A stretch of 64,000 nucleotides of DNA, taken from assembly GCF_035083965.1 (NCBI RefSeq), contig NC_089735.1, forward strand, positions 10,876,001 to 10,940,000. The letters are read 5' to 3'. The position numbers were made by a program, and so were the translations under genes. Positions 5,311 to 57,300 of the stretch are shown here, in pieces. This DNA comes from Branchiostoma lanceolatum (lineage: Eukaryota; Chordata; Leptocardii; Amphioxiformes; Branchiostomatidae). Positions within the stretch are counted from its first letter, which is position 1. Each line of letters begins with the position of its first letter. Below the pieces are notes generated by a model. The model was given only the letters and a program-made list of their open reading frames with translations. It ran no database searches and was not told the DNA's origin.

Positions 5311-7043
5311 ATGTGTATCGTTTTCCTGAAGTTTGATCCACACCGGAAAAGTGGTGGGTACAAAATCGTCATGGCTGCCAACAGAGATGAGTTCTTCAAC
5401 CGGCCCTCCAAGTCAGCGCATTTCTGGGGAGAAAACCCAAGGGTTCTCAGCGGCGTAGATATGAAACCAGGTAGGGATCTTTTTTTGAAAAACATGTACA
5501 TGTAACTGGTGACGTTTCTCGGTGTACACAAGGAGTGATCGAAAGGTTGCATTTAAAATTCATTTGGTAGAATGGCGGGTTGCATATTAGATGTGTCAGT
5601 CCACATAGTTAGGTACTGGTTGCGCCTCAGACAAGTCAACCCTTTGACACACCCTTTACAAGTAGATGCTCTATTGTATCAACAATCTTTCCAAGTGAAT
5701 AGCAACAAGAAAAACTGGTTACAACATGTGAAAGATGTATTTGACAATAGCGGATACTCTTTTATCTAGAACGCCAACAATCTCGATCTAGACATACAGC
5801 ATATATGTACATTGTTAAGAAAAAGGCTGACTGACATATACATTCAAAGTTTTCAAAGTGGAGTAAAATGATAAAATTATTAGCAGATCTATTTTGATGA
5901 CATTTAATGTATACATGTATCGCTGGGACTTGGTGGGGAGATAAGGTAGCCTGGAGTCCAGCCTTCTTAGCTTTAGTCCGCTACCCAAGCTCCGCTCCCC
6001 GCCTTGACTCCAGGCTAGAGATAATGTTAGTTCCATTTCATTTGTCAGGATAAATGAAGGTTGATATCACGACCTAACCACGTGTGTGACCCGAATTAGA
6101 TGAATAGGGTCTTTCCACTTCATGGGGACCGGCGAGCGACTTGTATGACCTACGACTTAACAAGTGGGATTTGAGATGTAAGGTATGATTTGAAAGACAA
6201 CAGAACATACACAACTTGTAAATACACTTCTTTTTCAATCAATTTCGTTTGAGATGCAATGAGATTTCTGTACGGTCAACGGTCGCTTAAATGGAAAGGG
6301 GATATAACTTTTTTATGCTTAATCAGTCGTTATATGTGCACTGTTTATTTGTTACAGGGAAAGAAGGCGGTACTTGGGTGGGTATGGCAGAGAATGGTCG
6401 CCTGTCAGCGATCACCAACATCCTTCAGTCCTCACCAGTCCCCCATGCAAAAGGGAGAGGCTATCTCATCACTGACTTCTTAAGGGGGAACCAAACACCG
6501 CTGGCGTATCTGGAAAACCTCCCTGAAGAAGGGCATGGGTTCAATGCTTTCAACCTATTGACCATGGATCTTTCTGAGTCTGCAAGTTTGGCGTACTACA
6601 GTAATGTTTCTCACGACACTCCAGAAATCTTACCGCCTGGCCAGTACGTCGTCAGTAACTCCTTACTACAAACGCCACTTCAGAAGACGATCCACGGAGA
6701 GAAGATATTCCAAGAACTCTTACAGGACAAGGAAGAGGGTGACGAAGATTCTTTCATCAGAGGTCTTTTGAAACTCCTGGATAATAGTGTGCAGTTCCCT
6801 GACGACCCGCTAGTGGCGTTGCAGGGAACCCCACTTCCAGAGATGGTTCGCGATGGTTTTTCTGCCATTTGTGTCCGGACACCGAAAGAAGCGAACTATG
6901 GAACAAGAACAAATACAGTTGTTCTCGTCGACGGGGACAATCACGTGACATTTGTGGAGAAGACGTTGAAAGTGCCTGTCGATGTTAAGAAATTTGAATG
7001 GGAGGTGAACAAATTTGAATTCAACGTCCGCCAGTCCCAATAG
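5311..7043 (+). CDS. TANGO2: TANGO2 homologue (NRDE domain), tandem copy A
   Basis: Two coding exons, 5311-5470 and 6358-7043, join in phase 1 to encode 281 residues, close to the human length as I recall it. The protein starts [12 protein letters not shown], with the conserved Cys2 and the NRDE motif at residues 24-27. It continues with RPSK, FWG and SG-DM-PGKEGGTW, and later YGTRTNT and [13 protein letters not shown], all hallmarks of the TANGO2/NRDE family. TANGO2 is linked to Golgi/ER organisation and to lipid, acyl-CoA and haem handling around mitochondria; its molecular activity is debated. The single intron lies where I recall an intron in human TANGO2, but the remaining introns are absent. 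Copies A and B differ at few residues (for example Ile/Val, Pro/Arg, Asp/Asn, Lys/Glu). The last two codons (Ser-Gln) and the stop lie beyond the homology with copy B, in junction sequence. Confidence 0.93.
5572..5852 (+). mobile_element. Truncated LINE ORF2 C-terminal remnant in TANGO2-A intron
   Basis: The translated segment [20 protein letters not shown] and what follows resembles the region after the reverse-transcriptase domain in invertebrate non-LTR retrotransposons. A stop (TAG) at 5767-5769 replaces the Trp codon seen in the unit 2 copy. The homology then ends abruptly near 5852, where the rest of the element has been lost by deletion. Confidence 0.65.
5947..6017. repeat. Short palindromic MITE (TAGCCTGGAGTC type)
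   Basis: A 71-bp element begins TAGCCTGGAGTC and ends GACTCCAGGCTA, so its termini are inverted repeats. The matching copy in unit 2 is 11144-11214, so it predates the duplication. Confidence 0.7.
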
Positions 7044-9424: not shown

Positions 9425-12238
9425 ATGTGTATCGTTTTCCTGAAGTTTGATCCACACCGGAAAAGTGGTGGGTACAAAATCGTCATGGCTGCCAACAGAG
9501 ATGAGTTCTTCAACCGGCCCTCCAAGTCAGCGCATTTCTGGGGAGAAAACCCAAGGGTTCTCAGCGGCGTAGATATGAAACCAGGTAGGGATCTTTTTTT
9601 GAAAAACATGTACATGTAACTGGTGACGTTTCTCGGTGTACACAAGGAGTGATCGAAAGGTTGCATTTAAAATTCATTTGGTAGAATGGCGGGTTGCATA
9701 TTAGATGTGTCAGTCCACATAGTTAGGTACTGGTTGCGCCTCAGACAAGTCAATCCTTTGACACACCCTTTACAAGTAGATTCTCTATTGTATCAACAAT
9801 CTTTCCAAGTGGATAGCAACAAGAAAAACTGGTTACAACATGTGAAAGATGTATTTGACAATAGCGGATACTCTTTTATCTGGAACGCCAACAATCTCGA
9901 TCTAGACATACAGCATATATGTACATTGTTAAGAAAAAGGCTGACCGACATATACATTCAAAGTTTTCTTTATAAATTATCTATCGATGACAGTAAGTCA
10001 AGATTTTATAGGAATGTCAAAACAGAATACTCAATGGAAAATATCTTTCCAACAAAGATTTTGACCAACGGTAAGCTGTGTGTAAGATACGAATTAGGGC
10101 ACATCCACTAGAAATAGAAAAGGGTATACGTAGATATAAAAAGCTGCCTGCTCACGAGAGAATGTGTAAGTTTTGTACAATGAACGCAGTGGAAAATGAA
10201 ATACATTTTATTTGTCAATGTCCTCTATATGACGCCGAAAGAAACGAATTATATAAAACAGCCTCCGTTAATTCCCCTAGCTTTCACCGTTTGAGTAACT
10301 TACAAAAATCAATCTTACTACTAAAATCAACCAACCCACTTACGATACAAAACGTGGGTCTCTTCATTTTCCACTGCCTTCAAAAAAGAAGTCAAACCCA
10401 ACCATAGTCAACCTTAGCTAACATAGAACTTTCACAGTAGACTAGAAAACTATGTCGATTCCTATGTATATCCATGTACTTGTTTGCCTGCAATTAGCCT
10501 TCGGGCATGAACTTGCAATAAAGTTATTATGAAAACCGTATCTGTATTACCGCGTAACGCACCAGCTTCACAGGCACGCAGCGCGGCAGAAGCTACATAA
10601 GCCGATTTAACATATAACTTAATGCGATGGCTTTGTTGATATATAATTTTATCCCAGTTGGACTTTGATGCGTGATATCTAATTCTTTTGGCACAACATG
10701 ATTCTATTAGAAGGTGAAGTTTGCTGTCACTATGTATAATTTTCATAGTGACATAGACAACTAAGCAGCGAAACACTGACAACTTACAATATGGTATCAA
10801 AACACACATGATGCCACAAGATATGGCGACGATTCGTGAAATAGAATAATGTACTTTAAAAAGAATGTCCTTTCCAACCTCTATGGCTACATACAACATT
10901 TTTTCCATGATTGGAATAACTAAACCATTTCAAAACTTGATTAGCCAACTTTAGGGCACTCAGTAGGGAAGTCATTTTGTTTAGATCAAACAGTGACAAC
11001 CAAAGTTGTCAATGGGGTTCTTTTTTTCGATATATTTGTTGGTCTTTATAAGTGGAGTAAAATGATAAAGTTATCAGCAGATCTATTTTGATGACATTTA
11101 ATGTATATTACATGTATCGCTGGGACTTGGTGGGGAGAGAATGTAGCCTGGAGTCCAGCCTTCTTAGCTTTAGTCCGCTACCCAAGCTCCGCTCCCCGCC
11201 TTGACTCCAGGCTAGAGAGAATGTTAGTTCCATTTCATTTGTCAGGATAAATGAAGGTTGATTTCACGACCTAACCACGTGTGTAACTCGAATAAGATGA
11301 ATAGGGTCTTTCCACTTCATGGAGACAGGCGAGCGACCTTATATGACCTATGACTTAACATGTGGGATTTGAGATGTAAGATATGATTTGAAAGACAACA
11401 GAACATACACAACTTGTAAATACAGTTCTTTTTCAATCAATTTCGTTTGAAATGCAATGAGATTTCTGTACGGTCAACGGTCGCTTAAATGGAAAGGGGA
11501 TATAACTCGTTTAATGCTTAATCAGTCGTTATAAATGCACTGTTTGTTGCAGGGAAAGAAGGCGGTACTTGGGTGGGTATGGCAGAGAATGGTCGCCTGT
11601 CAGCGGTCACCAACATCCTTCAGTCCTCTCCAGTCCGCCATGCAAAAGGGAGGGGCTATCTCATCACTGACTTCTTAAGGGGGAACCAAACACCGCTGGC
11701 GTATCTGGAAAACCTACCTGAAGAAGGACATGGGTTCAATGCTTTCAACCTATTGACCATGGATCTTTCTGAGTCTGCAAGTTTGGCGTACTACAGTAAT
11801 GTTTCTCACAACACTCCAGAAATCTTACCGCCTGGCCAGTACGTCGTTAGTAACTCCTTACTACAAACGCCACTTCAGAAGACGATCCACGGAGAGAAGA
11901 TATTCCAAGAACTCTTACAGGACAAGGAAGAGGGTGACGAAGATTCTTTCTTCAGAGGCCTTTTGAAACTCCTGGATAACAGTGTGCAGTTCCCTGACGA
12001 CCCGCTAGTGGCGTTACAGGGAACCCCACTTCCAGAGATGGTTCGCGATGGGTTTTCTGCCATTTGTGTGCGGACACCGAAAGAAGCGAACTATGGAACA
12101 AGGACAAATACAGTTGTTCTCGTCGACGGGGACAATCATGTGACATTTGTGGAGAAGACATTGAAAGTGCCTGTCGATGTTGAGAAGTTTGAATGGGAGG
12201 TGAACAAATTTGAGTTCAACGTCCGTCAGTTCTATTAA
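9425..12238 (+). CDS. TANGO2: TANGO2 homologue (NRDE domain), tandem copy B
   Basis: Two exons, 9425-9584 and 11553-12238, join in phase 1 to encode 281 residues. Exon 1 is identical to copy A at the nucleotide level. Exon 2 keeps every family motif ([29 protein letters not shown]) and ends VRQFY and stop, probably the ancestral terminus, since copy A's end lies at the duplication junction. The Ntn-type Cys2 and NRDE motif (24-27) are intact. The intron, about 2.0 kb, still contains the 3' part of a LINE. Both copies look functional with no frame damage. Which one is expressed, and where, cannot be told from sequence. Confidence 0.93.
9686..10530 (+). mobile_element. Non-LTR retrotransposon (LINE) 3' fragment in TANGO2-B intron
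   Basis: A frame from 9686 to about 10080 encodes the region downstream of a LINE reverse transcriptase. It shifts frame near 10080-10110 and continues to 10407. The second part contains C-x2-C followed by H-x4-C ([20 protein letters not shown]), a zinc-knuckle-like motif common at the C-terminus of invertebrate LINE ORF2. An untranslated tail ends with AATAAAGTTATT near 10525. The element is 5'-truncated and inactive; the clade was not determined. Confidence 0.72.
11144..11214. repeat. Short palindromic MITE, unit 2 copy
   Basis: This is the same 71-bp inverted-repeat element as at 5947-6017, carried by the segmental duplication. Confidence 0.7.
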
Positions 12239-14454
12239 ATAGTAAACTACTTCACTTGTACTATTAGTAAGGCCATGTTGATTTGATTATATGGATGGCA
12301 TCCTCTGGGAACCCCAAAACTGATGAGAGCGTGCAAATAAAGTCAATGCAATCTATATCATATATATTTTCCCATTTTGCAGCTGGTTTGTATGATTTAC
12401 AGTGAGGCCAAAAACATTTTTTGCGGAAACGGACGAAAATTGATGCGCGCGCGGATGTCATCTATATAATCAAATTTACATGGTTTAACACACATGATAA
12501 CATGCAAGAAACTTTCTGTCTGTGATATCTACTTAGAAACGAAGAAAGCATTTTAGCAGTATAAAAAGACAATTTCTTTTTTATGGATTCTGTTTATTTA
12601 TTTCTGTTTTCTTTATACAGGGTAGACGCGCTCAGTGCTTAACACACTGCTTAACAGGCATGCCCTGTACTATTGTAATTGGCTACCTTTAAAATAAAAT
12701 AATCAAAATAAGGAAAAGTTTACTACCGAATAGAAGTAAAGTTTGACGATGTGTATATATTGTACATTGTATGTATTGTTACAAAAATAACACAGGTACT
12801 AAGAAAAATAGGAATGACAATTTTCTATAAGTGTTTTATTTGCAAGTTCTTGCCCGAGGGCTAATTGCAACATGAAACAATGCATATACTGTACAGATAG
12901 TGCGAGTTAACAATGTTGACAAGTGGAACAAATGGCTATTCTAAGAACTACTACGGAATACAATCTACGCTTTTTGGGTTTGACTTCTTTTTTCGGAAGC
13001 AGTAGTTACAAAATCTTTCCCCCACGGGTAACTTTTTGTACCGAACTTTCTCAATTTCAAGAGGGTGGGCGCTAATTCTAATTTTATTAATTATAAGAAC
13101 ATAGTGGCCTCAATTGGTTACCGCTTCACATTTAGCAACCAACTTTAAAAGTGTCGCCCAGTCGCCATGGTAGAGGAAGAAACACGATTGCAAAGTTCCA
13201 TGTGCCCTCTACTGATTACTTATGGAACTGCACGACATATACTACTAGACATATACAGTAAAACCAATTTCAGAGTGAAACCGCTTTAATACAGGAACGA
13301 TTTCAAGTTCATCTGATAATATGGACGAAAATACGTCACAAAACACCGAAATAAACTTTATACTCATTCCCAATATGGACTTCTCAAAATACTTTTGCAA
13401 ATTATAGAAACCATCCGATGATTCGCACATATAAACCGAAAAGTGTATTTCTAAGTTTCTAACCCAAAACGTTTTTCCATATAGAAAACATATATGCCAG
13501 TATCCAGTTGTACATGTATATATTGCTGTGAGTTTCGTCATGAAAAGTTACAAGGATATACATGTTATACCATTCGAGACATGCCTTAGTCACGTGCCTT
13601 AGTTCAAGGGACAAAGTTTTCAAACAAACCGGAAGTCAATTGTTCTCGCAGACGGAAGTTCTTTGAACACGCCCAAGGACAAGCTGACGTGGTTATTCGG
13701 AAAGAAAGAGAGTTGACGTTTAAGAGGAAATGAAGTTAGTCATATGACTGTACATTCCCTTTCCAAGTATGCGAAGTTACGCCGACATGTACAATGTAAC
13801 GTATTATGCACAAGATACGTTTGTGCGTTTATCCACATCAGTAGTCGTAGAAGACCTTGCGAACGTTCCTGTACTTTTTTCGTGTCAATTAGATACTTCA
13901 TAAAGAATCACAAAGCAAGAATCGCAAATATTCATACAGATAAGTTGTATGTAGTTTCAAGCCGGAATCCGGTACTAAGTACTTTGTGTAAAATATTTAG
14001 CGTGTCGATTATGTTTATTGGCTACCATGCAAAGCAAATATTTCCTTGTTCTTCAAACCAGGGCAATGGGCATGGTTCTAGTAAAGAACAAAATTTCGGA
14101 AATCGGTAGGAGTTACCTTTTTAAATTGTGAGTTTTAACAGGAATTCGAGACGTCGTAGGGCTGTAGAGTGGGCTGACGCTATATCACTATTCTCCTATT
14201 GTTACATACGTTTGTTCAATACAAAGGTCAAAGGTGACGATAGAAAAGCGATGTGTAATCTTGCACAGTCATTGTATTATGACGACTAGAAATCGTGAAG
14301 TGTGCCAGTCTTCTCTCAATATTTGGCGGCGTATTTTTTGTGCCAGGCGGTTGAAACGCGTGAGATTAGCGAAACGCGTCTCGCTTGGTTCAGGTCCAAC
14401 GCTGCTGTATTGACAGTCAACACCGACAGGTGCTAAAAACACGTTTACTCCAAG
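12239..14454. other. Spacer between TANGO2-B and the TRIM gene
   Basis: This stretch is AT-rich with no supported coding exon. At about 12835-13015 it carries, in reverse orientation, the same LINE 3' tail seen at 10370-10520, shown by CAAGTTCTTGCCCGAGGGC and the reversed Lys/Arg-rich end of ORF2. The final 200 bp should hold the TRIM promoter or 5' UTR. I see no clear TATA box. Confidence 0.6.
12835..13015 (-). mobile_element. Inverted LINE 3'-end fragment
   Basis: The reverse complement matches the 3' end of the LINE in the TANGO2-B intron: the codons before the stop (around 12985-13015), then the tail with GCAATTAGCCCTCGGGC. It is a separate, heavily 5'-truncated insertion of the same family. 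Confidence 0.6.
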
Positions 14455-16428
14455 ATGGCGACCGACGGAGGCGACACGAAAACCGAGTCGGACATTTGGA
14501 CTTGTGGTGTCTGTCTGGAGGAGTTGTGGCGTCCCAGGTTGCTTCCGTGTGGACATGAGTGCTGTATGAAGTGTTTGGAATACTGGGAGGAGGGCGGGAG
14601 GAGTCCTCTACTTTGCCCCACCTGTCGTAAGGTTGTGTACCTACCCCCCGAGGGGATCGCCGGTCTCATGAAACCCCTCTGGGTCGGAAACTGCCGCTTG
14701 ATGTCACGTACTACAAATGATAAGAACGCTTCCGGGCCTAGGAAGGTGACCACTTGCTACAAACACCAAACCTGTGGTCTGACGTGGTTCTGCGACACCT
14801 GCGACAGAACAATCTGTCGAGAGTGCGTGACGACGGAACACGGGAGACATCCAGTCAGCCACATAACCAAGCTGGTCGAGAAGAAGAAGCAAGAGGCGCT
14901 TGGCCTCGTCGAAAGGGGGAGCGAAAAGGCCGCAGCTCTGCAAGCCCGGCTCCGCTACTTGGCGGCCTGCCGATACGAACTTGAACGACAACAGGCGGAA
15001 GCCGAGGCGGCGATAGAGGCGGCCGCTCAGACGTTACGTGAGGAGATAGAGAGGCAAAAACACTCGTCCTTACATTGGCTGAATTCCTTGTGCGGGCAGG
15101 AATTTGAGAAGCTGGCAGGTGCTCAGACACGAACCGAACAGGACTTTGCTCAACTCACGAGCGCGTTACATCTCGTCATCAGCTTTGGCAAGACCGTTAA
15201 GAACTCGAGCCAAAATCCCATTTCATTGTTGTCAGCCGTGAAGGCGCTTTCACAAGCCGTGCAAGGCGTGGATGTCAAACTTTCCCACACGATAATCAGG
15301 GTGAAATTCGTTCCCTCCAAGACGGGCGTTAACATTGGGAACGTGGCTTTTACCACGGGGGAGAGATTCCGACCGAAACAACATCACAACAACTTCTTAT
15401 CAGACTCTCCTGTTGATAACAACAATGCAGTTATTTCTTTAGAATCTACGGGATCACAATCTTTGGAAAGTCCTATGCTTATTGACCCGGTCTATGACAC
15501 CCCAACGACGCCCAACTCGCCCCTTGTACCGCCCACACCTCCAGCACATCGGAAAGTTCAAGTTGGCGGCGGTTATGGGAGCGAGACTGGGCAGTTCAAA
15601 AACCCATTTGCCCTGGCAGTTTCTAGTCACTATCTCTACGTTGCAGACAGAGCTAACGGCGGAAGGGTTCAAATATTTGATTTCTGTGGAAACCTGGTGC
15701 GTTCTTTTCTGCTCATGTTGGGGAAGGGCTTGGAGGCTTTAACTGGCGGGATTGTCTTGATGCCGAATGGCACGATAAAATATCTCGGTGGCGGACACGA
15801 GACCATGATATGTGACCGTGCCGGACGGGCTGTTGGGCGGGCTTGCTACCCAGTCATGACCGCTTACAACCCTAACGGCAAGTGCATCAGTCGAACAAAA
15901 CTCCAGATACGGCAAGGACACCTTGTGGATGCGGTCGCACTTCCTAACGGAAATATCGCAGTTGTGGTTATCACGGGTTTGTGGGAGCGGGCAGACTGTA
16001 TTCTACTCTCTGAAAGGGGACAGAAACTCTGTGAAGTCCACAGTAGTCAGACGACAGTGGGAGACTGCGTCTCTTTATCCGTGAACCCAAACTCGGGTGA
16101 CATTCTCCTCTGTGAGCCAAAACAAGAGGACCGAGATCGAGTGACACTCTTCAATTCACAAGGCCGACCAAAGTCAACAACGCTGCAGCTGGGCCATATA
16201 GCTACAACAACAACAGCCAACGACATATCCGTTGACAGCTATGGGAACATTATTTCATCGACGAAAAATGCGAGATTGCAACTCTATGACAAGAAGGGTG
16301 CGTTCTTAAAGGACGTGGCGTCGGGCAAAGATGGTCTGAAACGGCCGTCCAAAGTTGCCCTTACTAGAGACAGAAGAGTAGCCGTCATAGACGAGGGAGC
16401 CGTTTGTGTATTTATGTTTAGCTACTAG
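14455..16428 (+). CDS. TRIM-NHL-like RING E3 ubiquitin ligase, intronless
   Basis: A single uninterrupted frame of 657 residues starts at ATG 14455 (CAAGATGGCG context). The RING finger uses C17, C20, C32, H34, C37, C40, C54 and C57. A B-box type 2 has C101, H104, C113, C116, C121 and C124 with histidines at 129 and 132. A Gln/Glu/Ala-rich coiled coil follows at about 140-230. A Ser/Pro/Thr-rich linker (TPTTPNSPLVPPTPP) leads into a C-terminal region (about 367-657) with NHL-type repeats beginning GGGYGSETGQFKNPFALAVS. This order matches TRIM2/3/56/71-type proteins, which ubiquitinate targets chosen by the propeller, in neurons, RNA regulation or antiviral signalling. The NHL repeats are degenerate, so the fold assignment is less sure than the tripartite motif. 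No vertebrate orthologue is claimed. A polyadenylation signal lies at 16852-16857. Confidence 0.93.
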   Translation: MATDGGDTKTESDIWTCGVCLEELWRPRLLPCGHECCMKCLEYWEEGGRSPLLCPTCRKVVYLPPEGIAGLMKPLWVGNCRLMSRTTNDKNASGPRKVTTCYKHQTCGLTWFCDTCDRTICRECVTTEHGRHPVSHITKLVEKKKQEALGLVERGSEKAAALQARLRYLAACRYELERQQAEAEAAIEAAAQTLREEIERQKHSSLHWLNSLCGQEFEKLAGAQTRTEQDFAQLTSALHLVISFGKTVKNSSQNPISLLSAVKALSQAVQGVDVKLSHTIIRVKFVPSKTGVNIGNVAFTTGERFRPKQHHNNFLSDSPVDNNNAVISLESTGSQSLESPMLIDPVYDTPTTPNSPLVPPTPPAHRKVQVGGGYGSETGQFKNPFALAVSSHYLYVADRANGGRVQIFDFCGNLVRSFLLMLGKGLEALTGGIVLMPNGTIKYLGGGHETMICDRAGRAVGRACYPVMTAYNPNGKCISRTKLQIRQGHLVDAVALPNGNIAVVVITGLWERADCILLSERGQKLCEVHSSQTTVGDCVSLSVNPNSGDILLCEPKQEDRDRVTLFNSQGRPKSTTLQLGHIATTTTANDISVDSYGNIISSTKNARLQLYDKKGAFLKDVASGKDGLKRPSKVALTRDRRVAVIDEGAVCVFMFSY

Positions 16429-20908: not shown

Positions 20909-32348
<11,440 letters not shown>

Positions 32349-34902: not shown

Positions 34903-39650
<4,748 letters not shown>

Positions 39651-41960
39651 TGGCCGTAGTGCCAATGTATAGGTTATGAAGTAAGATTTGTATAACTCAT
39701 AGCTCCTTGCTCATAGTACATGGACTAAAAAGGCTTTCAGGAAGGGGGAGGGGGGCATGGAACTATTTTCTACTTGTATGAAACATGGGGCCAAATCATT
39801 ATACCTAAACATTTTTTCTTAGTGCTAACTTTAGGTAGTGTTCAACATTGAATAGTGAATATAACATGATTTATCCTGAGCTTTGTACATGTGCATGCAT
39901 AACTAAGTATAATTATTCATAGTAGACTTGCTTATTTGTAACTGAAAGGAAGAGTTGACCTATAGTACATGTGCCTCTTCGAGAGAATTTGCTGGTAGTA
40001 TAAATGTTACATTTGTACTGGTGTCAGTGTACATGTACAGGTATAGATCAGTGCACCATTATCAGTGACCTTAGTCAAAGTGTTGTTTGAATAAATGAAT
40101 AACAGTAATCAATAATTATCATATATAAGCAGAACCATACAACTTTTATACTCGAAATCAAAAGTTATGTCCAGTGGAAAACTGTTTGTGATATTGACAA
40201 TGACATTACTTAATTGATTAGATGCTCATGTGTAAGATTTTGATGTTTCTTTGAAAAAAAGAGGACAGGAAACTGGTTATGATAAGATGAAGCAGTGGAC
40301 AGTTTGAAACACAATGGCTTCCAATACTTCCTTCTCATAGATATGTTGACACCGCTACCAAAAACTAAAAGCTTTGAGAATCATGAATTGTAGACTGAAA
40401 CATCACTTACATACATAACATCAATGTTCACAGTTTGTGTGAATCAGATTATAGTTTTGGGTATGGAATTACATGTAAGAACTTAAGATAAAGTGTATGA
40501 AGCCTTTTTTTCAAAATGAAGCAAAAAGGCATTTCTTGTAGATGCTTCTTGTCAGCATATACATGTGTGAAGCTTTGCTTCTAGATGTGCAATTTTGTAG
40601 CCTGTAACCCAATTAAGTAGACCTTGAGCAAAGTTTTCGGAGACTAACAGTTATAGCTTAAAAGTCTGGACTTTTTTTTCTTCCATTGCTCAGGCATTTG
40701 TGCAGCTTTGTCGACTTAATTGATCTAAATTGTAGGTCTCATATGTTTTGTCCTTTGCTGTTTTCTACAATTGTTAAGCTTTAAAGCAGATGCAGTAAAA
40801 CCCTCTAATAAAAGGATATTTGTTTTGATATGTTTTATCATCATTTGAAAATATCATTCTTTTGTGCTGGAGCAGTGATTTTTAATTTTCTGAAAGGTAC
40901 AACTCCTGTTTACTTAGTAAAGATGTACGTGTGTGTACTGAACTTAAATGCAACTCTTATAATACCCCCCCCTCCTTCTATGGTCAAAGGTACGACCTCA
41001 CTAGTTCATACATAACAAGGTGTCATGAACGTAGTCCCTACCAGGCACCACAGGTCGGTAGGAAAATTGTAGAAATTGGTTTCTACTATTTTTCTAGCGA
41101 CCTGTGGAGCCTGGTAGAGTTAAAGTAAAAATATTCCTTTCGGTATAATGGTTTCGTCCAAGTTAGTCATATGACCTCTCGAAACCAGCCAGTTCGTATT
41201 AAAGACACTTCCGTCAGGGGCAAACAACAACATTACAGCAAGAGTACCTCCACCTCATCAAGGTAGGTATGTTACTACTCAAGTTTATGGTGTAGATCCA
41301 GCCGTAAAGTCAGTGTAATTGCACTGGGTTGCGCGGTAAGCTCACCACTTGTTCGTCGAAACCACAAACAACGCAGGTGACATTTGATACCACTAGGCGG
41401 GTATGTACTATGACCCTTTCATTGCACTACCGGGTGTTCTAATTACAACAGTTACTACGACAATGGCAAAATCCTGTCTTAGAGCTACCCCTGATTCTGA
41501 ATTCATACCATTTAAAACCCTACTGTGTCATTGTTGAGATTGTAACATAGGGAAAATGCCACGTCGACATAGCGTGACAAGGGCAAGTTGTCGTGTGTGT
41601 GGACGTTACGTCTCACGCAACAAAGGAGTTATGGACCAACGTTACAAAGTTTCAATAGAGGAACTTTCATTTACACATTCTTGTGTACCTGCAATGTACA
41701 TTTCTCGATATACATTGTAAAAGCCTTTACATTGATTTAAAGGGAACTTCCTTGGTTTACTACCTGGTATCTTAAAATTGGCATGGTTTTGCCCAATGAC
41801 ATTTGCCTAAACCATGTACAGGTACACTTAATGCTCATCATTCAACCAACGAGCTGAAGCCTCCATGGTAACAAAATTTACGCTATGTTGAAATTTGATA
41901 CAGTAGCCATGATACTAGATATTGATGACTGAAAAATATGGTCTATCCTTTTATACAGCA
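39651..41960. other. Spacer between TFAM and the TPR-TIR gene
   Basis: This stretch holds the TFAM 3' UTR and, near 41263, a plausible splice donor (TCAAG|GTAGGT) of a non-coding first exon of the next gene. Its partner acceptor (TTTTATACAG) ends at 41958. I see no other coding exon. Confidence 0.55.
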
Positions 41961-44693
41961 ATGGCAATCACTGCAGGTGCAATGGGGGAAGGCCTCCTTG
42001 GACAAGAAGACGCCCTCTGGCGAAAGCTGAAGGACCTGCCGACTCTGTTTCAGCTTGACATACCGCGAATGTTAGAGACGAACTATAGCAAGGTCATCAC
42101 AAGACTACGGACGGAGAAACGCCAGGTTCCCGAGGAGTTTGACGAAGATGTGAGGTCAGAAAACCTGCTAGCATTCCTGCTGTTGTACATTGACAAGATT
42201 GAGGAAGCTAAACCACACATAGATTCCGTTCTCAGGAAAACTGAAGACGATCCTAATCTGGTCTCTCTCGGAAACATCTGCGCTTACTACCTCAAACAGT
42301 ATAATGTCTCAGAATCCAAGAAGTACTTGCAGAGAATCGACATGGTTGTGAAGGAGAACGATAAAGTGGCTGAAGACAAAACGACGATAGCAATAGGAGA
42401 ACAAGGGTATTGCCTGTCCAGACTTGGGCCTAAGTGTCACCTCATGGCTGTGGATAAATTTCGCGAAGCTCTCGGTCGTGGACCTCCGGACTACCAGCTA
42501 AAAGTCAAGTGGAACTATGGGTTAGCCCTGTGTCTCGATCGCTACCTTGATCGGGACAATTTTACGGAAGACCCATGGTTTAAACCAACCGAGGTTTATG
42601 AAGAAGCACAACGATGTTTGGCGCTCGTAACTGGAAGTGACATACAAGCTTTCCGTGGAAAAGGATGGGTGGCATTAGGTGAGGTCCACAGCAAGTATAA
42701 AAAGATACACCGCAAGTACTTTGAAGGCAACAGAAAGGGAAAAGGTCTCGGCCCCCAGCAGATCGACGAGTGCTTTGAAGCCGGTTTATCCGTAGCTAAG
42801 AATGATCATTTCGTACTAGAGAGGGTGGGCCGTCACCACAGACACAGGAAACGCATCAATAAGGCAATAGAATGCCTGGAGAAAGCGAACGAAGTCCGCC
42901 CTTCTGCATTTTCCTGGCACCATCTCGGACTGGCTTACAGATCAAAGGCGCCGCGTGGAGGACGTCACGGATCCCCTGGATGGAGAGGAAGACGTGGTCA
43001 TGGCAGACCTATGGGTAGTCGATATGATGGAGCTTCACCTGAGTCAGACAGAGCACGGTACCAAAGTTGTACACCGTTTGGCCGGGGAGGAAGAGGGGGT
43101 CGTGGGCGTTCGGGTGGACATTACCGCGGTAGAGGCAATTTCAACCATAACAACAGACATACCAGTTACCATGTTAGTCAGGCAGTTGAACATGGTCGCC
43201 CTTGGTCTTCACACGGCCAGTGGTATCCAGACGGGAGAGATCAGAGAAGAGGACAAAGACAAGGTTATACGAACCAGCCGCATGTTGCTAGTTCACCATT
43301 ACAAGGGTACGACTACGGAACGGACGTACCGTGGGGATATCCAAACCCTACAAGAGGAGGTAGAAACGTACGAGCTGGACCGAGAAGCAGAGGGCGTTGC
43401 AGACAAGGGCGTTTCCAAAGACGCTACAACAACACCGACGACGGTGCTAGGAGTCCAGAGTTGGGAGATCAAAGTGTGGAAAGTGAACCCTGCTCAGATC
43501 ATGATGTTGACCAAGTGCAAAGCGATCTTGGTCGAATGACCTTAGATCGTCGCAACCAATCCGAGGCAAATGCCGGAGCCCAAACAGATTTTCTTGATCC
43601 ATTCTTAGAGAAGGCAAAGGAATGCCTTGAAAAGGCTTATGAATTATCTGAAGGTACGGGTGTTGCCATCCCTGTAGGCCTAGCTGAGATCCTCATGCAG
43701 ATGGAGAAACATGAAGAAGCTTTGCAGTATCTTCGAAAAGCCATCAACCAAGACACGGCGTCTAGGCCTCTAGAGGCCGCCGGTTGCTACCAGAAATTGG
43801 GGCAATGTTTCCTTCAAATGGGACAAGAAGAGAACGGGAAAAACATGCTCCGAAAAGCTGTGGAAAGCGCCGCTAAAGTCGACGTAGAGAAGAAGGGAGC
43901 TTTCGCCACATTAGTGACACTCATGCAGAAGGACTTCCGAAAAGAAGACATGCAAGCTGATCATGTCAATGAACTTGCTCGGCTGTACGAATTGGTGAGT
44001 CGTAACAGGGAGGCGCTGGACTTTAGAAAAACCGCCCTCAAACTGAAAGCCAACGATCCAACAACCCTCCGTGGTTTGGTGGACAATCTTCGAGCACAGG
44101 GAGACTACACCCAAGCTAAGATGTACCTGTCAATGCTACGCGGTCTCACAGACGTGGAGGTCCCAACGGAGGTAGTCATTGAGGTCAACCTTGGAGCTGC
44201 CGAACTCCAGACCCAACAAGACCCTCACATCGCTAGCGATATCTTCCTAGAAACGTTTGACTTCGTATTCCCAGCCGAACCTCACCCAGACATCATGTAC
44301 AACGTGTTTGTTTACAGCGATGAAGAGGACAGGGAAAGTGCAGAAAGGTTGACGATTCTGTGCGAAGAGCAGTACGACTTGACTTGCCGTTGTGTCCATC
44401 GTGACATCCCCTGTACGGCATCTGTAGTCGAGATGGTTGCAGATTTTATCAACAAAAGCACTTGTGTCATCTTTGTTATCTCGAAGGCAAGTTTGCAAAT
44501 GGATATGACGAAACACATGATAGGAATCACGGTGCGACGAAACTTTGGAAACCTAGTGACCGTGAACGTCGAAGATTGTGATCTTCCAACAATCGTCTCT
44601 GTGTACCCAAGTATCAAAATGCAAGACTGTTTCACTCAGCTCGGAGGCGTAAATACTAGCCTGTTCAGGAAGATCATCTCAAGAAAAACGTGA
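41961..44693 (+). CDS. IFIT-like TPR protein with RGG-rich insertion and TIR-like C-terminus
   Basis: A single coding exon of 910 residues. I start at ATG 41961 because an acceptor (TTTTATACAG) ends two bases earlier; an upstream in-frame ATG at 41922 would then be intronic. Residues 1-328 form TPR helices with IFIT-like spacing, including AIECLEKANEVRPSAFSWHHLGLAYR. Residues about 329-543 are Arg/Gly-rich (PFGRGGRGGRGRSGG; TRGGRNVRAGPRSRGR), then acidic and polar. TPRs resume (AKECLEKAYELSE; HEEALQYLRKAI) to about 770. Residues 780-905 resemble a TIR domain: YNVFVYSDEEDR, a BB-loop-like HRDIPC (813-818), and CVIFVISKASL. The WCxxE-type catalytic glutamate region is not conserved. IFITs bind foreign RNA and TIRs signal; the combination suggests an innate immune sensor or adaptor. 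TPR is certain, TIR likely, function inferred. Confidence 0.85.
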   Translation: MAITAGAMGEGLLGQEDALWRKLKDLPTLFQLDIPRMLETNYSKVITRLRTEKRQVPEEFDEDVRSENLLAFLLLYIDKIEEAKPHIDSVLRKTEDDPNLVSLGNICAYYLKQYNVSESKKYLQRIDMVVKENDKVAEDKTTIAIGEQGYCLSRLGPKCHLMAVDKFREALGRGPPDYQLKVKWNYGLALCLDRYLDRDNFTEDPWFKPTEVYEEAQRCLALVTGSDIQAFRGKGWVALGEVHSKYKKIHRKYFEGNRKGKGLGPQQIDECFEAGLSVAKNDHFVLERVGRHHRHRKRINKAIECLEKANEVRPSAFSWHHLGLAYRSKAPRGGRHGSPGWRGRRGHGRPMGSRYDGASPESDRARYQSCTPFGRGGRGGRGRSGGHYRGRGNFNHNNRHTSYHVSQAVEHGRPWSSHGQWYPDGRDQRRGQRQGYTNQPHVASSPLQGYDYGTDVPWGYPNPTRGGRNVRAGPRSRGRCRQGRFQRRYNNTDDGARSPELGDQSVESEPCSDHDVDQVQSDLGRMTLDRRNQSEANAGAQTDFLDPFLEKAKECLEKAYELSEGTGVAIPVGLAEILMQMEKHEEALQYLRKAINQDTASRPLEAAGCYQKLGQCFLQMGQEENGKNMLRKAVESAAKVDVEKKGAFATLVTLMQKDFRKEDMQADHVNELARLYELVSRNREALDFRKTALKLKANDPTTLRGLVDNLRAQGDYTQAKMYLSMLRGLTDVEVPTEVVIEVNLGAAELQTQQDPHIASDIFLETFDFVFPAEPHPDIMYNVFVYSDEEDRESAERLTILCEEQYDLTCRCVHRDIPCTASVVEMVADFINKSTCVIFVISKASLQMDMTKHMIGITVRRNFGNLVTVNVEDCDLPTIVSVYPSIKMQDCFTQLGGVNTSLFRKIISRKT

Positions 44694-46192
44694 TTGCACT
44701 AGCTTTTCAATCTTTCCAAATAGCCCAAATTACTCTCGACCAAATGTAGGACACACAGACACTTAAAAAGCCATCAACTTCAGTGTTTACCAAAAATCTG
44801 TATAGTACTTTATGCATGCTTTACTCCCAGGTTTAAACATGAAAGAATATCTGCATATTCATAATATGTGTCAAACTCTACTTGGCTTTCTTGATCAACA
44901 TAGCATAGCTACTAGTATTCTGTCAATGTTCAACCATCCATAACATGCAATTGTTAGATAATAAGCATTGTATATCTATTTCTTTTTTATTCAAACATAA
45001 ACACATGATTAAACTGTTAGCATAACAGAATACCACACTAATGGAACAGAGGATTAGTTTCATTTAAACTAAACTAAACTAAACCTAAACTAAACTGTTA
45101 ACGGACTTTACGGGATCATAGGGGCATTGTTCCCAAGAATAGAAGAAATTCAAAATTTTTTATATTCGACTTGAACTTAACTGAATAAGCCCTTAAAAAT
45201 ACCCAAACAATTTGAACAGCCAATCAAAGGATTGCACCAAAGTCATAGAACAATCGCCTTTTATCCTTGAAGTATAGTTAAACAATAGTGTTAAGAAAAA
45301 TAAAGTAGAAAAAGAAGTGCTATTTCAATAAACAAACATCATGCAACTGGTATGAAGTGACTACACTACAAATTATCATATAACTTCTGGTTATGCTAAT
45401 CTACAATAACAATAGAAATATAAATGTCAGTCAATAATACAACCATGTTGAAATGGTCACATGTTTGCATATACACTGTACAATGTAGGTTGTTGTTCAG
45501 CAGTTCATTGCTTTGAGCACCCCATATTCAAACAGTCCATGGCAGATAGCACTTGGAAGTCAATTTTCAACACATCCAGTAAATACAAACAGGACCCATA
45601 TTATGAATCCTACCTGTAGTCAACTTGTTGTAGCTGCACAATTTTTTTGCAATAGCATGCAAAAGTATCACAGTTGAAAAGCATATGCAAGCTTACTCCT
45701 GTCATTTTTACATTGCTTTTTAAATGATTATGATTATCTTCATGATAACATTATGTAGGATAGCTGTACAACCTCCATTATCATTTATCCACCAGGTCAC
45801 TGTTAATCCTGAAATACCGGAATTTGCGGTGGTTTCATTTTCATGGTTTTTGCAGTGCCTGTCCACCGTAAAATAATAACACCACAAATAAATGTGTTTT
45901 GGGGCTACTGTATTGTTTAAAACGAGAACATCAAACACCACAAAAACTTCCTTTCCATTCCTTCTGCAAAATTAAAACCCCGCCAAAAATAAATGAATTT
46001 ACAGTGCATAAATTGGTCACTTTGAAAAGTGTGTGAGAGATCTCTAGTGCAGTATCCCCAGGTATGCATAGTTTAGATATACAGGAGTGCATTATACTAA
46101 TGCTGCATTGGAGATCTCTTCAAATTTTAGGGTAGCGGACATGTGACCTGGCGGATAATTATCAACTGAGGTTAGATTGTTTGTTGTCTTCC
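44694..46192. other. Spacer between the convergent TPR-TIR and NUDCD3 genes
   Basis: This is 3' flanking sequence of both genes. It contains a diverged, reversed MITE family 2 copy (45812-46008) and a dispersed repeat at about 46015-46150 that resembles 30945-31085 (shared GTATGCA-AGTTTAGATATAC and GGAGTGCAT-ATAC). No coding exon is supported. Confidence 0.6.
45812..46008 (-). mobile_element. MITE family 2 copy, diverged
   Basis: Read on the minus strand it begins ACTGTAAATTCATTTATTTT and ends CCACCGCAAATTCCGGTA, with the family's GGTTTTAATTTTG body. It is more diverged than the other three copies. Confidence 0.5.
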
Positions 46193-51374: not shown

Positions 51375-54300
51375 ATGTCTTCTAACGCCGTCCCCAGCGT
51401 GATTTACCCCTTCATCTACGGCTTCCTCAAGGACCACAAGTTCGACAAGGCGGCACAATGGTTCCAGAAGCAGACAGGAGTGGTAAGAAGATGCTTGGGG
51501 AGGGGGGTTTACACTTGCGGCCTGCGTGCGAACTTGTGCAAGACAAGATGGCGTCTTTCCATGCGTCTTTGCAAAACTATGTAGCGTTACATGGTGCGAT
51601 CGCTTATGGTAAAAAACAAAAAAAAACATCCTATTTCAAATGGTCTTGTGAAGTCACTCGTCCATTTGAAAACTGTCACTTGTGCAAAGGAATGCGAAGT
51701 ATCGTAGACTAGTGGTACATGTGTAGACGTGTGCGCACGTGCACGGTGTTTCAACAGGTGAAAGCGTCTATTACAGTGTTCTCGCCAGCCTGAAATGTTT
51801 ACCCGTCATTTAAATTTTGTTTCGGGGAAGAACATATCGAGCGCCGAAGGCGCGAGGCGTCGCGCCGGAGGCGTGACCATTCTAGGGGGGTCCGGGGGTA
51901 TTCTCCCCCGGAAAATTTTGAGATCTAGACCCTCTGAAACGCTATTTCCTGCATTTTGAGGGCAAATTTCCTGGTAGAATAAGCTTAGTTTAATGACATC
52001 TCTTTCGGTGAAAAATTACACAAGGGTTTCAGGCTTAATTTTTTGGGGAGGCGTGCCGTCATCGCGGAAATATCGAATGTTCACAACTTCACACACAAGC
52101 TACACTTGTATACAATCGGCAAAGAAAAGAAAATTTAGCGCAACAAACCTTTATTACGTATCAGCTACGTCCTACAAAAAATGCACACAGAATAAGTCGG
52201 CAAAAAGCCTACTTTGAGAAAGAACGCAGTAAAGACGTCCAATTTTTTGTCCCATGTTTTCCGCGGTTAATTTCTCCGGTAACTGCACTGAATGTGTTCA
52301 AAAGTTGTCGATTCAAGCCTTCCAACAGCCGCTTTGTCGTGCGATCCTTGCGATTCCCGCCATTCCCCTAACATCTCGCAAATTCACGCTCAGCTGAAAT
52401 CTCGCGAGTAGCAAGACTCGCATGTCATTGGTCGTTTTTTCTTGACGCGACGGAGACGTGCGCTGTGATTGGTGGATTACAATATCTGACGCCTGTTTAC
52501 CATTTCTTGCGGGAAGAACTCAGCCGCCGCGGCTTAAAACTTTAATACTGTACATAGATTACAGAAAGTCTGATAGCTATAGACGTATTTCTGAATTTGA
52601 AGGCTTCTTTGATGACAACAACTGACGGTGAACCGAGAGGGACAAAACAGAAATAAACGTCAGCCTGATGCGACCGGCCAAAACTGTAGTGGGGAGGGCG
52701 GCGCATGACGCCGAGTTTTCAGCGGCCAACAAATATTACTAGCAACCACCACGCCGCTCTCTGTGTGTTGCTGGGGTTGTCGCCAGCCGGGGCATTAGAA
52801 ATGATCTAGATTGCCCTCGTCACGAACTTCCGCTGATCCTCTGGAGTTTTTGAAAATTCTAAGCTCTGTCTAAATATCTTTACACACTGATTTTGTCCAT
52901 TAAAAATGACGGGTTGGGCAAAAATTTTGTCCGTCATGAGCGACAAAAACCCGTCAAATGACGGGAGGACGGGCGCTGGCGAGAACACTGGTCTATTAAC
53001 CTACTTAAATGATCAGAGCTTCAATTTCACAATCATTAGTATTGAAGAAACGAAAGTTCTGTTGAATCCATGCCCCCCCCCCCCCCAATTTTTTTTCTAT
53101 TTGGAAAAAGATATATTATAATCTCATCTATACTAGTTCATTGAAATATTATTAGTTAATTCTTTTTCGCAAGGAAGTTAATGACAAATCCTTTCATAAG
53201 ATTTTTAAGTTTACTGTCTAAACAGAGACCTTCTCACTGCGAACTCATCTCCTGACAAATTTTTGTTCCACCCCACACCCTCCTTCCTTACTATGCTAGA
53301 TAACAGACCATTTATTCTTTCCAGAGTGAAATAAAAAAATCTGTTCAATAAGCATACAGTTCGTGCAGTCATTACATGTATTGTTTTACTTCTTACTAAG
53401 AACAGTTAATACAAAGTATGCTTAGTTTTGCCAAGATGATGTCAGTCCAAACAAGGTCCAAGTAGATTAGTTTTAGTTTACTAGCTAGCCTAGGTACCAT
53501 CCTCTGTTGTTGCCATTGGCTCGTTCTCGTCGTGAGCAAGTGAAAAGAAAGATCCGTTGGTAACAACTTTGGATGGCACCCAGTAACCCAGGCTAAGTTA
53601 AACACAGACAGTGATGGAATTGTTACACAGACACTGTACAGCCAAAATTGAATGGGCTACCCAGCCATCTGAAAATTCAATAAATAAATACTGTACCATA
53701 TCTGAAATCTAGAATATGGACAAGATAGAAAGTGGCCGATCATCTAGAAACATAGGTCATTGTTGGTTGATGTTATGTTAAACAGTTAAAGACATACATG
53801 TACATGGATGTAAAACCTTTGTCTTTTTTGTCCCACAGAAACTCCAGGCCCCAGATGAAGAGCAGCCCACAGTTGAAGACTGGTTTGAAATGTGGCAGAA
53901 GTAAGTATAAGTACCCAGCAGACTCTTCGCCCCTTTAGATTTGAATTTTCAAAAATAAGCATCCTTAAGTTTTGTACTCTACCGATCCATTTTTATAGTA
54001 TTCCATAGCTGCTATGTGAAGCTGCATCTCTCATTTTAGTATTCCAACTTTAACTTTAATTAGAGCTAATACATGTACCTTTTTACTCCTGTCCCATCAA
54101 AAGTGAATCTGCATTTAGATACTTTAAATACTAAAGAGATGTGAGAAGCTTTCCTTAACACCTGCCCTTTCCCCTTGCACAGGTCACCTGACAGTGCCAA
54201 GAAGAGAAAAAGAACAGGCACAGCCCAGACCAAACCAGCCGTCAAGCGACAGAAAAAGGACTCCTCTTCTAGTAGTAGTAGTTCAGACGACGACGATAAA

Positions 54301-57300
54301 CCAGCCCCGTCCAAAACACCGACCCCTGCGGGGAAAACCCCCGTAAAGAAACCACAGAGCAGTTCAGGGTCTGAATCTGATGACGAAAGTTCAGACAGCG
54401 AAGCAGAATCCAAGAAAGCTACTCCTGCACAAAAGAAAACAACACCCGCCAAGAAAAAGGCTACCCCAAAACAGAAGAAGACCACTCCTGCTAAAGCAAC
54501 ACCAGCGAAGAAAAAAGCTACTCCAGCAAAGAAGCAGGTGGCAAAGAAAGAAAGCTCTTCTGAATCTGACAGCAGCTCAGACGAAGAGGAAAAACCACCA
54601 GCCAAGGCAACCCCTACTCCAAAGAAGGAGACGGGAGTCAAGAGAAAAAAGGAGAGCTCTTCAGAAAGTAGTTCTTCATCAGAAAGCGAGGAAGAGCCTG
54701 CAAAGCCTGCTCAGTCTAAACCAAGCCCCAAACCACCAGCCAAGAAACAAGCTACAAAAGAAAGTAGCTCTGACAGCTCTGACTCAAGTTCGGAGGAGGA
54801 AACTGCAAAGAAGCCTGTGCCAGCTACAAAAGCCGCTGTCAAAAGACCAGCACCCAAGGAAGAGAGTTCTTCTGAAGAATCTGACTCATCATCCGAAGAA
54901 GAAGAAACCTCCAAGACAACAAAACCACCTCCTGCTAAGAAAGTTGCAACACAAAAGAAGGATAGTTCCTCTAGTGACTCAAGCTCAGAAAGTGAAGACG
55001 AAAAAACATCTGGAAAGGTTGCACAGAAGGCAGCGGCACCTAAAAAGAAAGTGGAGTCAAGCTCTGAGGAAAGTAGCTCAGAAAGCGAAAGTGAAGAAGA
55101 GTCCAAAGTTAAGGCAGTGCCAGCCAAGGCAGGTGTAGCAAAAACTGTTCCAAAGAAAAAAGAAGATAGCTCAAGCTCCTCTGAGCCAGAATCAGAGAGT
55201 GAAGAAGAAAAGGCACCAGCAAAAGCACCAGTAAAAGCACAGGAGAAGGAAAACAAGAAGGAATCTAGCTCAGAAGAATCCAGCTCAGAGGAATCTAGCT
55301 CAGAGTCAGAAGATGAGTCCGCCAAAAAGACGGCAAAATCAGCAGTCACAACACCTGCCGCAAAGAAAACAGCAGTAAAGAAAGACGACTCCAGTTCGTC
55401 TGAGGAGAGTTCTGAAGAAGAAGAAACAAAGACCACTCCTCAAGTTCAAAAGTCTCCTGCAACAAAAGCACCCACCAAGAAGGAAGAGTCCAGTTCCTCG
55501 GAAGAGAGTTCTGACGACAGTAGTTCAGATGAAGAGGAAGAAACCAAAACTGCTCCAACTAAAACGTCAGCTACAAAAACACCAACAAAATCGAATGTCA
55601 ATAAAACGCCTAAATCTGACAAAAAGGCTGTGTCAACACCAGCAAAGCCTAAAACACCTGTAAAAAAAGATGAATCAAGTTCGGAGGAGTCAAGTGACTC
55701 AGAAGAAGAGGAAAAGCCTCCAGCAAAAACACCACCAAAGGTAGCATGACCATGAACAATGTTTTGTAAGAGTCATACTCAATGCCACAATATCTCAAAC
55801 TTTCAAAGTCTGCTCAGAAAAGAGTTGGTGATAGCCAAGGCCACTTACTTTATCATGTGTTATTTTGTGTCTAGTGCTGAACAAACTTTTAGATATCGGC
55901 AACTGCAAGTTCCACATTTTAGCCATAAAACTGATGTAAAAAATAGATTTACTGAGAATTTTCAGTTGCAGTTAAAAGGTGTTGCTTACTGGTGTCACAT
56001 TCACAAATTGTATCTAAGACAGTTTGTATATGCTTTGTTGTCACAGGTGAACGGAGTCTCAAAGAAAGCTAAAGCAGACAGTTCTTCAGACTCAGACAGC
56101 TCTGACAGCTCAGAGGAAGAAGAGGAGGCTCCCAAACCCAAGACACCTGTGGAGAAAAAGCCAACAGGTGAGCTACTGTTAAGTCAGTTGTTTCATGGAG
56201 ATTTAATTTTGCTGTAGGCGGCAAAGGAGATCCAGATTGAGGGTTATGTTGAGGATGCTTGACCATTGCTGTTTCAAAAAAAATAAAATTCCTCTTTCAG
56301 CTTCATTTGAAGCTGCAGATGTGAGTCTATTGGAAGAAATTGGTAATCTTGTGTTCATTTATGCAATAGTTCATTTATGCAATAGTGAAGGTTCTTTGTA
56401 GTCATCCTACCCTACCTTTGAGTAACAAAATGTGGCCGGTTTGAGTGTAATAGATAAAATTTTTCTGTCTTCTATCACAGCCAATGGCAATGGTAAGAAA
56501 GCTGAGAGCAGTTCAGAAGACAGCAGTAGTTCAGAGGAAGAAAAGGAGAAGACTCCAGCCAAGAAGTCCCAGCCCAATACTCCCACGACTACTCCTTCCA
56601 ACCAACAGGCTGAGAAGAAGACCCCAAACACAGTACCCAAGACAAAGAAACAACAAGAAAAGGTACATATATGAAGCTTTAGCATTTCTTTTTTTCTTCA
56701 ACCAATGTTAGCCAAGATTGGAAGAATTGTTGATGCAGTCGAATGACAAAACATGGTAAATAGAATTGGTCTGGTAATAAGGGTTTCATTTTGCATCTTG
56801 TACTGAAATGTACTTCCAAACATACTTTTTAGGATGTATAATCTGTTCTTTAAAGTACATGAAAGCATGATACTTTTTAAAGGATTGGAAGTAATTTATT
56901 GACACATATAACTTTTTGTTTCTGTGAACAGAAGAACACGCCCTTCCGGAGAGTACGTGAAGAAGATGTTGTAATTGATCCACGTCTACAGAACAACGCC
57001 TTCGAGTCAAAGGTCAGTTAGCTTCTCCTGCAAAATTCCGTCCTAGAACTTCATTTGATTTGTTGGTTTTCAGATATGGTATTAAGAGGTAATGCTGAAA
57101 TGAAATCACATGAAAGTGCAGTCTGAGGGGAAAGTCTGTACCTTGGTACTCAGTTTCAGGTAGTGAATGTACTCAGATTTAACTTTTCCTGACAGCCCTC
57201 AGTTGACCTTTTCCTTAATTCTTCCTTTATGATGTCCAAGAGGGAAGGAAAATTGTTATGGTCTGAACAAAACACATTTGAATATTGATAAATACAGTAA

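Follow-up and report, generated by a model that had tools for sequence, protein, structure and literature searches.

Introduction

Proteins that combine tetratricopeptide repeats (TPRs) with a TIR domain have been named as a class, TIR-TPR, in work on oyster and Aplysia: PMC4346834 uses the name in the legend of a figure and PMC9334734 among its abbreviations. On the accessible parts of these two sources, proteins pairing TPR and TIR are a class already known. Here we describe a gene lying at positions 41961-44693 of the forward strand in a 64,000-nucleotide stretch of contig NC_089735.1 (the whole of which is called the window below). Its product of 910 residues almost certainly carries, as judged from sequence comparisons, TPRs, a block rich in arginine and glycine (the RG block), further TPRs and a TIR domain, and the N-terminal TPR half resembles IFIT5, which belongs to a family of vertebrate sensors of viral RNA.

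According to the accessible sections of PMC3688568, IFIT genes are tied to interferon and present in jawed vertebrates, and none was found in lancelet; selected TPR proteins of lancelet and acorn worm cluster by phylogeny with FKBP4, not with IFIT. The same sections describe a long, unconserved C-terminal extension of zebrafish IFIT5A, as well as a two-exon structure of most mammalian IFIT genes, in which the first exon holds the ATG plus two bases of codon 2. In the accessible text of PMC5787515 IFIT is named once, in a table on fish. TPR-bearing NLRs of placozoans, as presented in the available part of PMC6321704, are not a combination of IFIT-like, RG and TIR parts. Many domain combinations have been reported in lancelets (PMC4284660), and the main text of that paper, in its accessible part, contains no word beginning with TIR, TPR or IFIT. 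The IFIT-like/RG/TIR combination was not among the papers listed in our literature searches, which covered titles and the beginnings of abstracts for part of the papers retrieved, outside subscription papers and preprints.

Results

Reading frame and domain order

The gene is a single uninterrupted frame on the forward strand; its ATG is at 41961 and its stop at 44693, and the open stretch begins at 41919. Its parts are the following.

41961-44693, forward strand: complete coding sequence from the first ATG in the exon to the stop, 910 codons plus stop, intron-free
41961-42944, forward strand: residues 1-328, N-terminal TPR half, IFIT-like (Pfam TPRs; IFIT5 colinear with residues 80-199 and 276-329)
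42903-42950, forward strand: residues 315-330, first helix (A) of the TPR that the RG block interrupts (SAFSWHHLGLAYRSKA), aligning with IFIT5 up to residue 297
42945-43589, forward strand: residues 329-543, disordered-type RG block inserted in one TPR, between its A and B helices (composition, shuffles, PDB alignments)
43083-43109, forward strand: residues 375-383, the densest RG cluster (RGGRGGRGR); two more RG follow, at 389 and 391 (sequence)
43590-44270, forward strand: residues 544-770, second helix (B) of the TPR split by the RG block, followed by generic-looking TPRs (Pfam, PDB alignments)
44295-44621, forward strand: residues 779-887, TIR domain (PF13676 on residues 784-886; alignments to 6wt6 and TLR2)
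44517-44519, forward strand: codon of Met853, at the position of the TIR catalytic glutamate, which is Glu104 in 6wt6 and the Glu of WCKYEL in TLR2

Thus, along the protein, TPRs are followed by a 215-residue RG-rich block, further TPRs and a C-terminal TIR domain. This is the anatomy that a preliminary description, made from the letters of the sequence, had proposed for a single 910-codon frame, and both the Pfam matches and the open frame bear it out. Codon usage prefers the 910-codon frame to the other two in all 150-nt windows placed fully outside the RG block, including those over the TPR-TIR junction, in a test that is partly circular because the usage table was trained on the same flanks. 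A pseudogene was ruled out, the frame being intact, and we consider 41961-44693 to be probably an animal gene.

No death domain was present among the 25 of 28 Pfam families listed for the protein, and all 17 NCBIfam matches listed for the protein and its TIR part stayed under their respective cut-offs. There were no tandem repeats within the gene and no Rfam matches in the window at gathering scores, and a tblastn search of the window for paralogues returned, at expectation values (E) below 0.4, no sequence other than the gene itself. A pattern search for homologues in a collection of viral contigs, which is not meant for animal genomes, gave no matches.

TIR domain

On residues 768-910 alone, PF13676 scored 30.6 bits (E = 5.3e-7), above its cut-off of 28; on the whole protein the score was 26.0 bits (E = 1.4e-5), just below that cut-off, and PF01582 stayed under its own with 12.4 bits. 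The preliminary description had made its TIR-like end depend on a TIR match for residues 775-910, and the first of these scores supplies one. In a phmmer search with the TIR part, the oyster TIR-STING structure 6wt6 came out best (E = 0.0012), and three TLR2 sequences were matched at E = 0.12-0.17. Box 1 (YNVFVYS, at 780) was aligned with these references, as was the Arg-Asp of a BB-loop-like RDIPCT (814-819); the loop is ungapped, and its proline, Pro817, comes one residue earlier than the BB-loop proline in 6wt6 and TLR2.

The glutamate of helix alpha-C is the catalytic residue of TIRs that cleave nicotinamide adenine dinucleotide (NAD). In both alignments inspected this position is occupied by Met853, and Met849 lies opposite Trp100 of 6wt6 and the corresponding Trp of TLR2. 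With a methionine in place of the glutamate, consumption of NAD, which the preliminary description had offered as one possible activity of the domain, appears unlikely, and the domain is better read as a non-enzymatic TIR of adaptor type. An NAD-cleaving TIR was rejected as a candidate for the same reason.

The RG block and its point of insertion

Residues 329-543 consist of 16% Arg and 17% Gly, and the share of Ile, Leu, Val, Met and Phe together is 8%, as against 29% elsewhere. The block contains four RGG (positions 332, 375, 378 and 465), 11 RG (those at 375, 378, 381, 389 and 391 among them) and 14 GR motifs. The resulting RG/GR total of 25 compares with a mean of 5.9 and a maximum of 12 in 2000 shuffles of the whole protein (215-residue window). 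The sequence is RG-rich up to about residue 493 and acidic thereafter to 543, with 32 Lys/Arg versus 9 Asp/Glu in the first 165 block residues and 4 versus 12 in the last 50. On a charge-hydropathy plot the block falls on the disordered side of the line and the other three parts of the protein on the ordered side. Clustered repeats within a disordered-type segment, by which RG/RGG-motif proteins are recognized, are therefore present. RNA binding is common among RG blocks.

Helix A, immediately before the block, was aligned over IFIT5 residues 287, 288 and 291, which carry the label "pivot" in Table 5 of PMC9677429 (a source accessible in part). When residues 331-543 were removed, the engineered TPR protein 9qhb was matched at E = 7.5e-20, compared with 2.9e-6 for the C-terminal part alone, and the N-terminal part gave no match to it at E <= 10. 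The value of 7.5e-20 is largely a sum over overlapping repeats, the best single stretch having an independent E-value (i-E) of 0.0019. This stretch and the others that were fully printed cross the join with a four-residue gap, helix A lying on its N-terminal side and helix B on its C-terminal side. Pfam was less telling: the joined piece of 155 residues scored 61.7 bits with TPR_8, which is not above the two sides summed (21.4 + 47.3), and for a 45-residue join the best Pfam stretch covered profile positions 17-32, to the right of the join. This match, confined to positions 17-32, does show that the sequence after the insert begins in the middle of a repeat, at helix B. The alignment of engineered TPRs across the join shows that the RG block lengthens the A-B turn of one TPR, and the IFIT5 alignment places this predicted loop beside the IFIT pivot.

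The alternative frame over the RG block

A second frame is open over much of the same region.

42871-43539, forward strand: open frame of 222 codons, +1 relative to the RG frame (list of open reading frames), for the most part probably a consequence of the RG codons

Scored by flank codon usage, the +1 frame beats the RG frame in eight windows starting at residues 301-476, and synonymous-codon preference fails to separate the two (0.008 versus -0.005). To compare the frame models, the first 198 codons of the block were resampled in two modes, by permuting synonymous codons or by drawing codons anew. With the RG protein assumed to be real, the +1 frame stays open in 16% of the redrawn and 2.4% of the permuted resamplings, and its observed score is attained in 0.17% and 0.5%, respectively. 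With the +1 protein assumed to be real, the RG frame would average 7-10 stops and about 11-14 RG/GR, and 0 of 3000 resamplings in either mode were stop-free in the RG frame or reached 25 RG/GR. Because of this outcome the RG frame was taken as the coding frame.

The competing account holds that the RG block is an artefact and that the true product over 42945-43536 is read in the +1 frame by way of two frameshifts, with no RG domain at all. The 222 open codons, the higher flank-usage score in eight windows, the low frequencies with which the RG model reproduces both, and the indifference of synonymous preference all suit it, but its own model never yielded the observed RG frame, which moreover joins both TPR halves without any frameshift, and a Pfam search with the +1 product gave no match up to E = 1. 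We regard this account as extremely improbable, and a frameshift artefact was rejected by the resampling. The codon-likeness of the +1 frame is somewhat stronger than the RG codons explain, and overlapping coding is possible.

The IFIT-like N-terminal half

In the protein, TPR families of Pfam exceeded their cut-offs (TPR_8 with 47 bits, cut-off 25.7; TPR_12 with 45.6 bits, cut-off 30.1), and TPR motifs, which IFIT proteins carry in multiple copies throughout, were likewise found along this protein. When residues 1-331 were compared with the PDB, IFIT5 was the best of 14 matches up to E = 10 (E = 9.1e-8), followed by a designed TPR (6e-4), four IFIT1 sequences (about 0.001) and IFIT2 (0.06). 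The alignment to IFIT5 comprises two stretches, residues 80-199 with IFIT5 74-191 (i-E 0.93) and residues 276-329 with IFIT5 242-296 (i-E 0.0018), with 53 identities in 170 aligned residues. These sequence comparisons support an IFIT likeness of residues 1-331, that is, of the N-terminal half only; membership of the IFIT family is not established by them.

Flanking signals and neighbouring features

Candidate signals were located on both sides of the coding sequence.

41263-41958, forward strand: candidate intron in the 5' untranslated region, 696 bases, donor AAG/GTAGGT (9.9 bits), acceptor TTTTATACAG/CA, consensus scores only
45299-45332, forward strand: AATAAA at 45299 and at 45327, both candidate poly(A) signals by pattern only, with 50 such matches on this strand in the window

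The donor at 41262 is the best of 39650-41950, and donors of at least 9 bits occur 34 times on the forward strand of the window. With the candidate acceptor before 41959, the ATG would begin at the third base of an exon and the entire coding sequence would lie in the second exon; a weaker donor at 40989 would allow translation to start in a short first exon, at the in-frame ATG of 40980. The interferon-stimulated response element (ISRE) looked for in an IFIT promoter, GAAANNGAAA, is absent from both strands of 39650-41990. According to the accessible part of PMC3688568, this element is also missing from some vertebrate IFITs. No NF-kB consensus was found within 39650-41990, and the palindromic TTCNNNGAA, which resembles a gamma-activated site, occurs there twice and 24 times in the window.

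Elsewhere in the window, two TANGO2 open reading frames (6291-7043 and 11522-12238, forward strand, E about 4e-48 each) lie inside a tandem duplication, and the repeat families D4, D7 and D9 over and beside them are 95-97% alike. An inverted repeat (22327-23061 and 24652-25386) has arms of 735 nt, 98% complementary and 1590 nt apart, each of which holds a near-identical open frame of 125 codons; the one copy scanned had no Pfam match, and the structure is perhaps a mobile element. A 663-codon open reading frame with RING and B-box domains and a weak NHL match below the cut-off (14437-16428, forward strand) is TRIM-like. On the forward strand, positions 54145-55749 form a frame of 534 codons in which runs of Ser/Asp/Glu alternate with Lys/Pro/Ala; it had no Pfam match and by eye resembles a nucleolar phosphoprotein. 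An exon of an M14 zinc carboxypeptidase was recognized at 27915-28277 on the reverse strand (E = 1.1e-22). The TANGO2, RING/B-box and M14 matches together suggest that the genome is that of an animal.

Discussion

The reading that we tentatively prefer is that of a TPR scaffold binding RNA or ribonucleoprotein and ending in a non-enzymatic TIR adaptor. A cytosolic scaffold of this kind would act in the manner of an IFIT to which an adaptor end has been added. Its basic TPR groove may bind RNA or RNA-protein complexes together with the RG loop, which would also raise the local concentration on RNA; the clustering that follows could gather TIR domains, which would draw in further TIR proteins (MyD88- or TLR-like) through contacts between TIR domains rather than act by cutting NAD. 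RNA binding, or RNA sensing, by this protein is inferred. In favour of this reading are the single 910-codon frame, the TPR and TIR matches in Pfam, the rank of IFIT5 as best PDB match of residues 1-331, an RG content far above that of shuffled sequences, the place of the insert between two TPR helices and Met853 at the catalytic position, along with the basic residues described next.

The accessible part of PMC9677429 names basic residues of IFIT5 that make contacts to RNA or have been mutated at the RNA site. Seven of them fall in our alignment, and five remain Lys or Arg (residues 154, 194, 291, 294 and 327 for IFIT5 150, 186, 257, 260 and 294); IFIT5 Arg261 is replaced by His295, and Lys48 lies outside the alignment. 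Among further site residues, IFIT5 His287 and Leu291 are kept as His320 and Leu324. A number of results weigh against an IFIT-like RNA scaffold, beginning with this same site. IFIT5 Arg253, the second strongest RNA contact in the accessible part of that paper, has become Glu287, and Tyr156, Tyr250, Tyr254 and Gln288 have become His160, Phe284, Arg288 and His321. The five of seven site residues that are basic compare with 8 of 16 other aligned Lys/Arg (Fisher P = 0.31); with Arg261, which the accessible text mentions solely as adjoining Tyr185, moved out of the site group, the proportions are 5/6 and 8/17 (P = 0.14). As the site residues are kept no better than other Lys/Arg, conservation of the RNA site relative to IFIT5 is not shown. 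Moreover, the IFIT5 match is divided into two stretches, the better with an i-E of 0.0018 and the other of 0.93, and residues 60-270 alone matched IFIT5, in first place, at E = 0.24, level with an unrelated DPY30-domain protein (0.25). With the block removed, three engineered TPRs rank above IFIT5. For residues 532-772 the matches are to designed and FKBP-type TPRs, with none to an IFIT at E <= 0.1, and the C-terminal TPRs look generic; the preliminary description had called the scaffold IFIT-like, and the term is supported for residues 1-331, where IFIT5 is the best PDB match, and not for these C-terminal repeats. Two single-sequence AlphaFold2 models had a mean predicted local distance difference test score of 38, too poor for a fold search; at this low confidence, one of them had helices across residues 16-312 and 520-729. 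Finally, none of the 15 pattern matches in a collection of genome contigs, which is not meant for animal genomes, was a relative by tblastn.

The closest rival to the RNA-binding scaffold is a protein-binding TPR-TIR adaptor with a disordered loop, of the sort named in mollusc surveys, and it is a serious possibility. Here the TPRs would bind proteins (receptors, NLR partners or chaperones), the RG block would be a disordered linker or a segment for arginine methylation or protein docking, and the IFIT likeness would amount to general TPR similarity, with no RNA end being sensed. What this adaptor leaves unaccounted for is the rank of IFIT5 as best of the PDB matches for residues 1-331, in two colinear stretches, the additional matches to IFIT1 and IFIT2, and the RNA binding that RG blocks commonly show. 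It agrees, on the other hand, with the nature of the C-terminal TPR matches, with RNA-site residues that are not kept beyond background, with the existence of a TIR-TPR class (PMC4346834 and PMC9334734, as accessible) and with a phylogeny in which selected TPR proteins of lancelet and acorn worm fall beside FKBP4 and apart from IFIT (accessible part of PMC3688568).

Far less probable is an RNA- or virus-triggered effector whose clustered TIR cleaves NAD like SARM1 or bacterial TIR effectors. The location of the TIR at the C-terminus of a repeat scaffold would fit such an effector, as would an oyster TIR-STING fusion as its best solved TIR relative, but the pair of methionines, Met853 and Met849, stands where 6wt6 has Glu104 and Trp100, and TLR2 also Glu and Trp. 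We give hardly any credence to two separate genes or a mis-assembled fusion, with the TIR belonging to another transcript. Many predicted domain combinations of lancelets have been put down to errors of gene prediction (accessible part of PMC4967905), but TPR and TIR share one intron-free open frame in this case and the coding signal continues across their junction, which would leave little room for an error of splice prediction.

Within the preferred reading of an RNA-binding scaffold, a more specific proposal can be formulated, namely an IFIT-type sensor. RNA bound in the TPR groove and by the RG loop at the pivot would cluster the protein and trigger a non-enzymatic TIR relay that couples RNA recognition to Toll/MyD88, independently of interferon if the genome is that of an invertebrate. 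This sensor is plausible and unproven, and we judge it rather unlikely. On the same condition of an invertebrate genome, a protein with an N-terminal half best matched by IFIT5 and a TIR at its end would suggest that IFIT-type recognition predates interferon and was once wired directly to TIR signalling.

Comparison with known systems

With the vertebrate IFITs (IFIT5 and IFIT1) the protein shares a TPR array that over residues 1-331 is colinear with IFIT5, and a coding sequence undivided by introns, which a short 5' exon may precede. It differs from them by the 215-residue RG block inside one TPR, by the C-terminal TIR domain and by its length (910 residues versus 482 in IFIT5). The candidate intron precedes the ATG and does not follow codon 1 plus two bases, and no ISRE match lies upstream. 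IFIT itself has been reported from jawed vertebrates only (accessible part of PMC3688568).

The TIR-TPR proteins of molluscs (oyster and Aplysia) also have TPRs and TIR in one protein, a likeness at the level of the class name only, on the accessible parts of the sources. Box 1 and the BB-loop Arg-Asp align with adaptor TIRs of the TLR/MyD88 type (TLR2, E = 0.12-0.17); unlike in these, Pro817 comes one position early, and no death domain was among the Pfam families listed. The metazoan TIR-STING of oyster (6wt6) has a different sensor domain, as well as Glu and Trp where the present protein has Met853 and Met849, and shares with it the fusion of a sensor to a TIR domain that is the best solved relative of the one described here (E = 0.0012).

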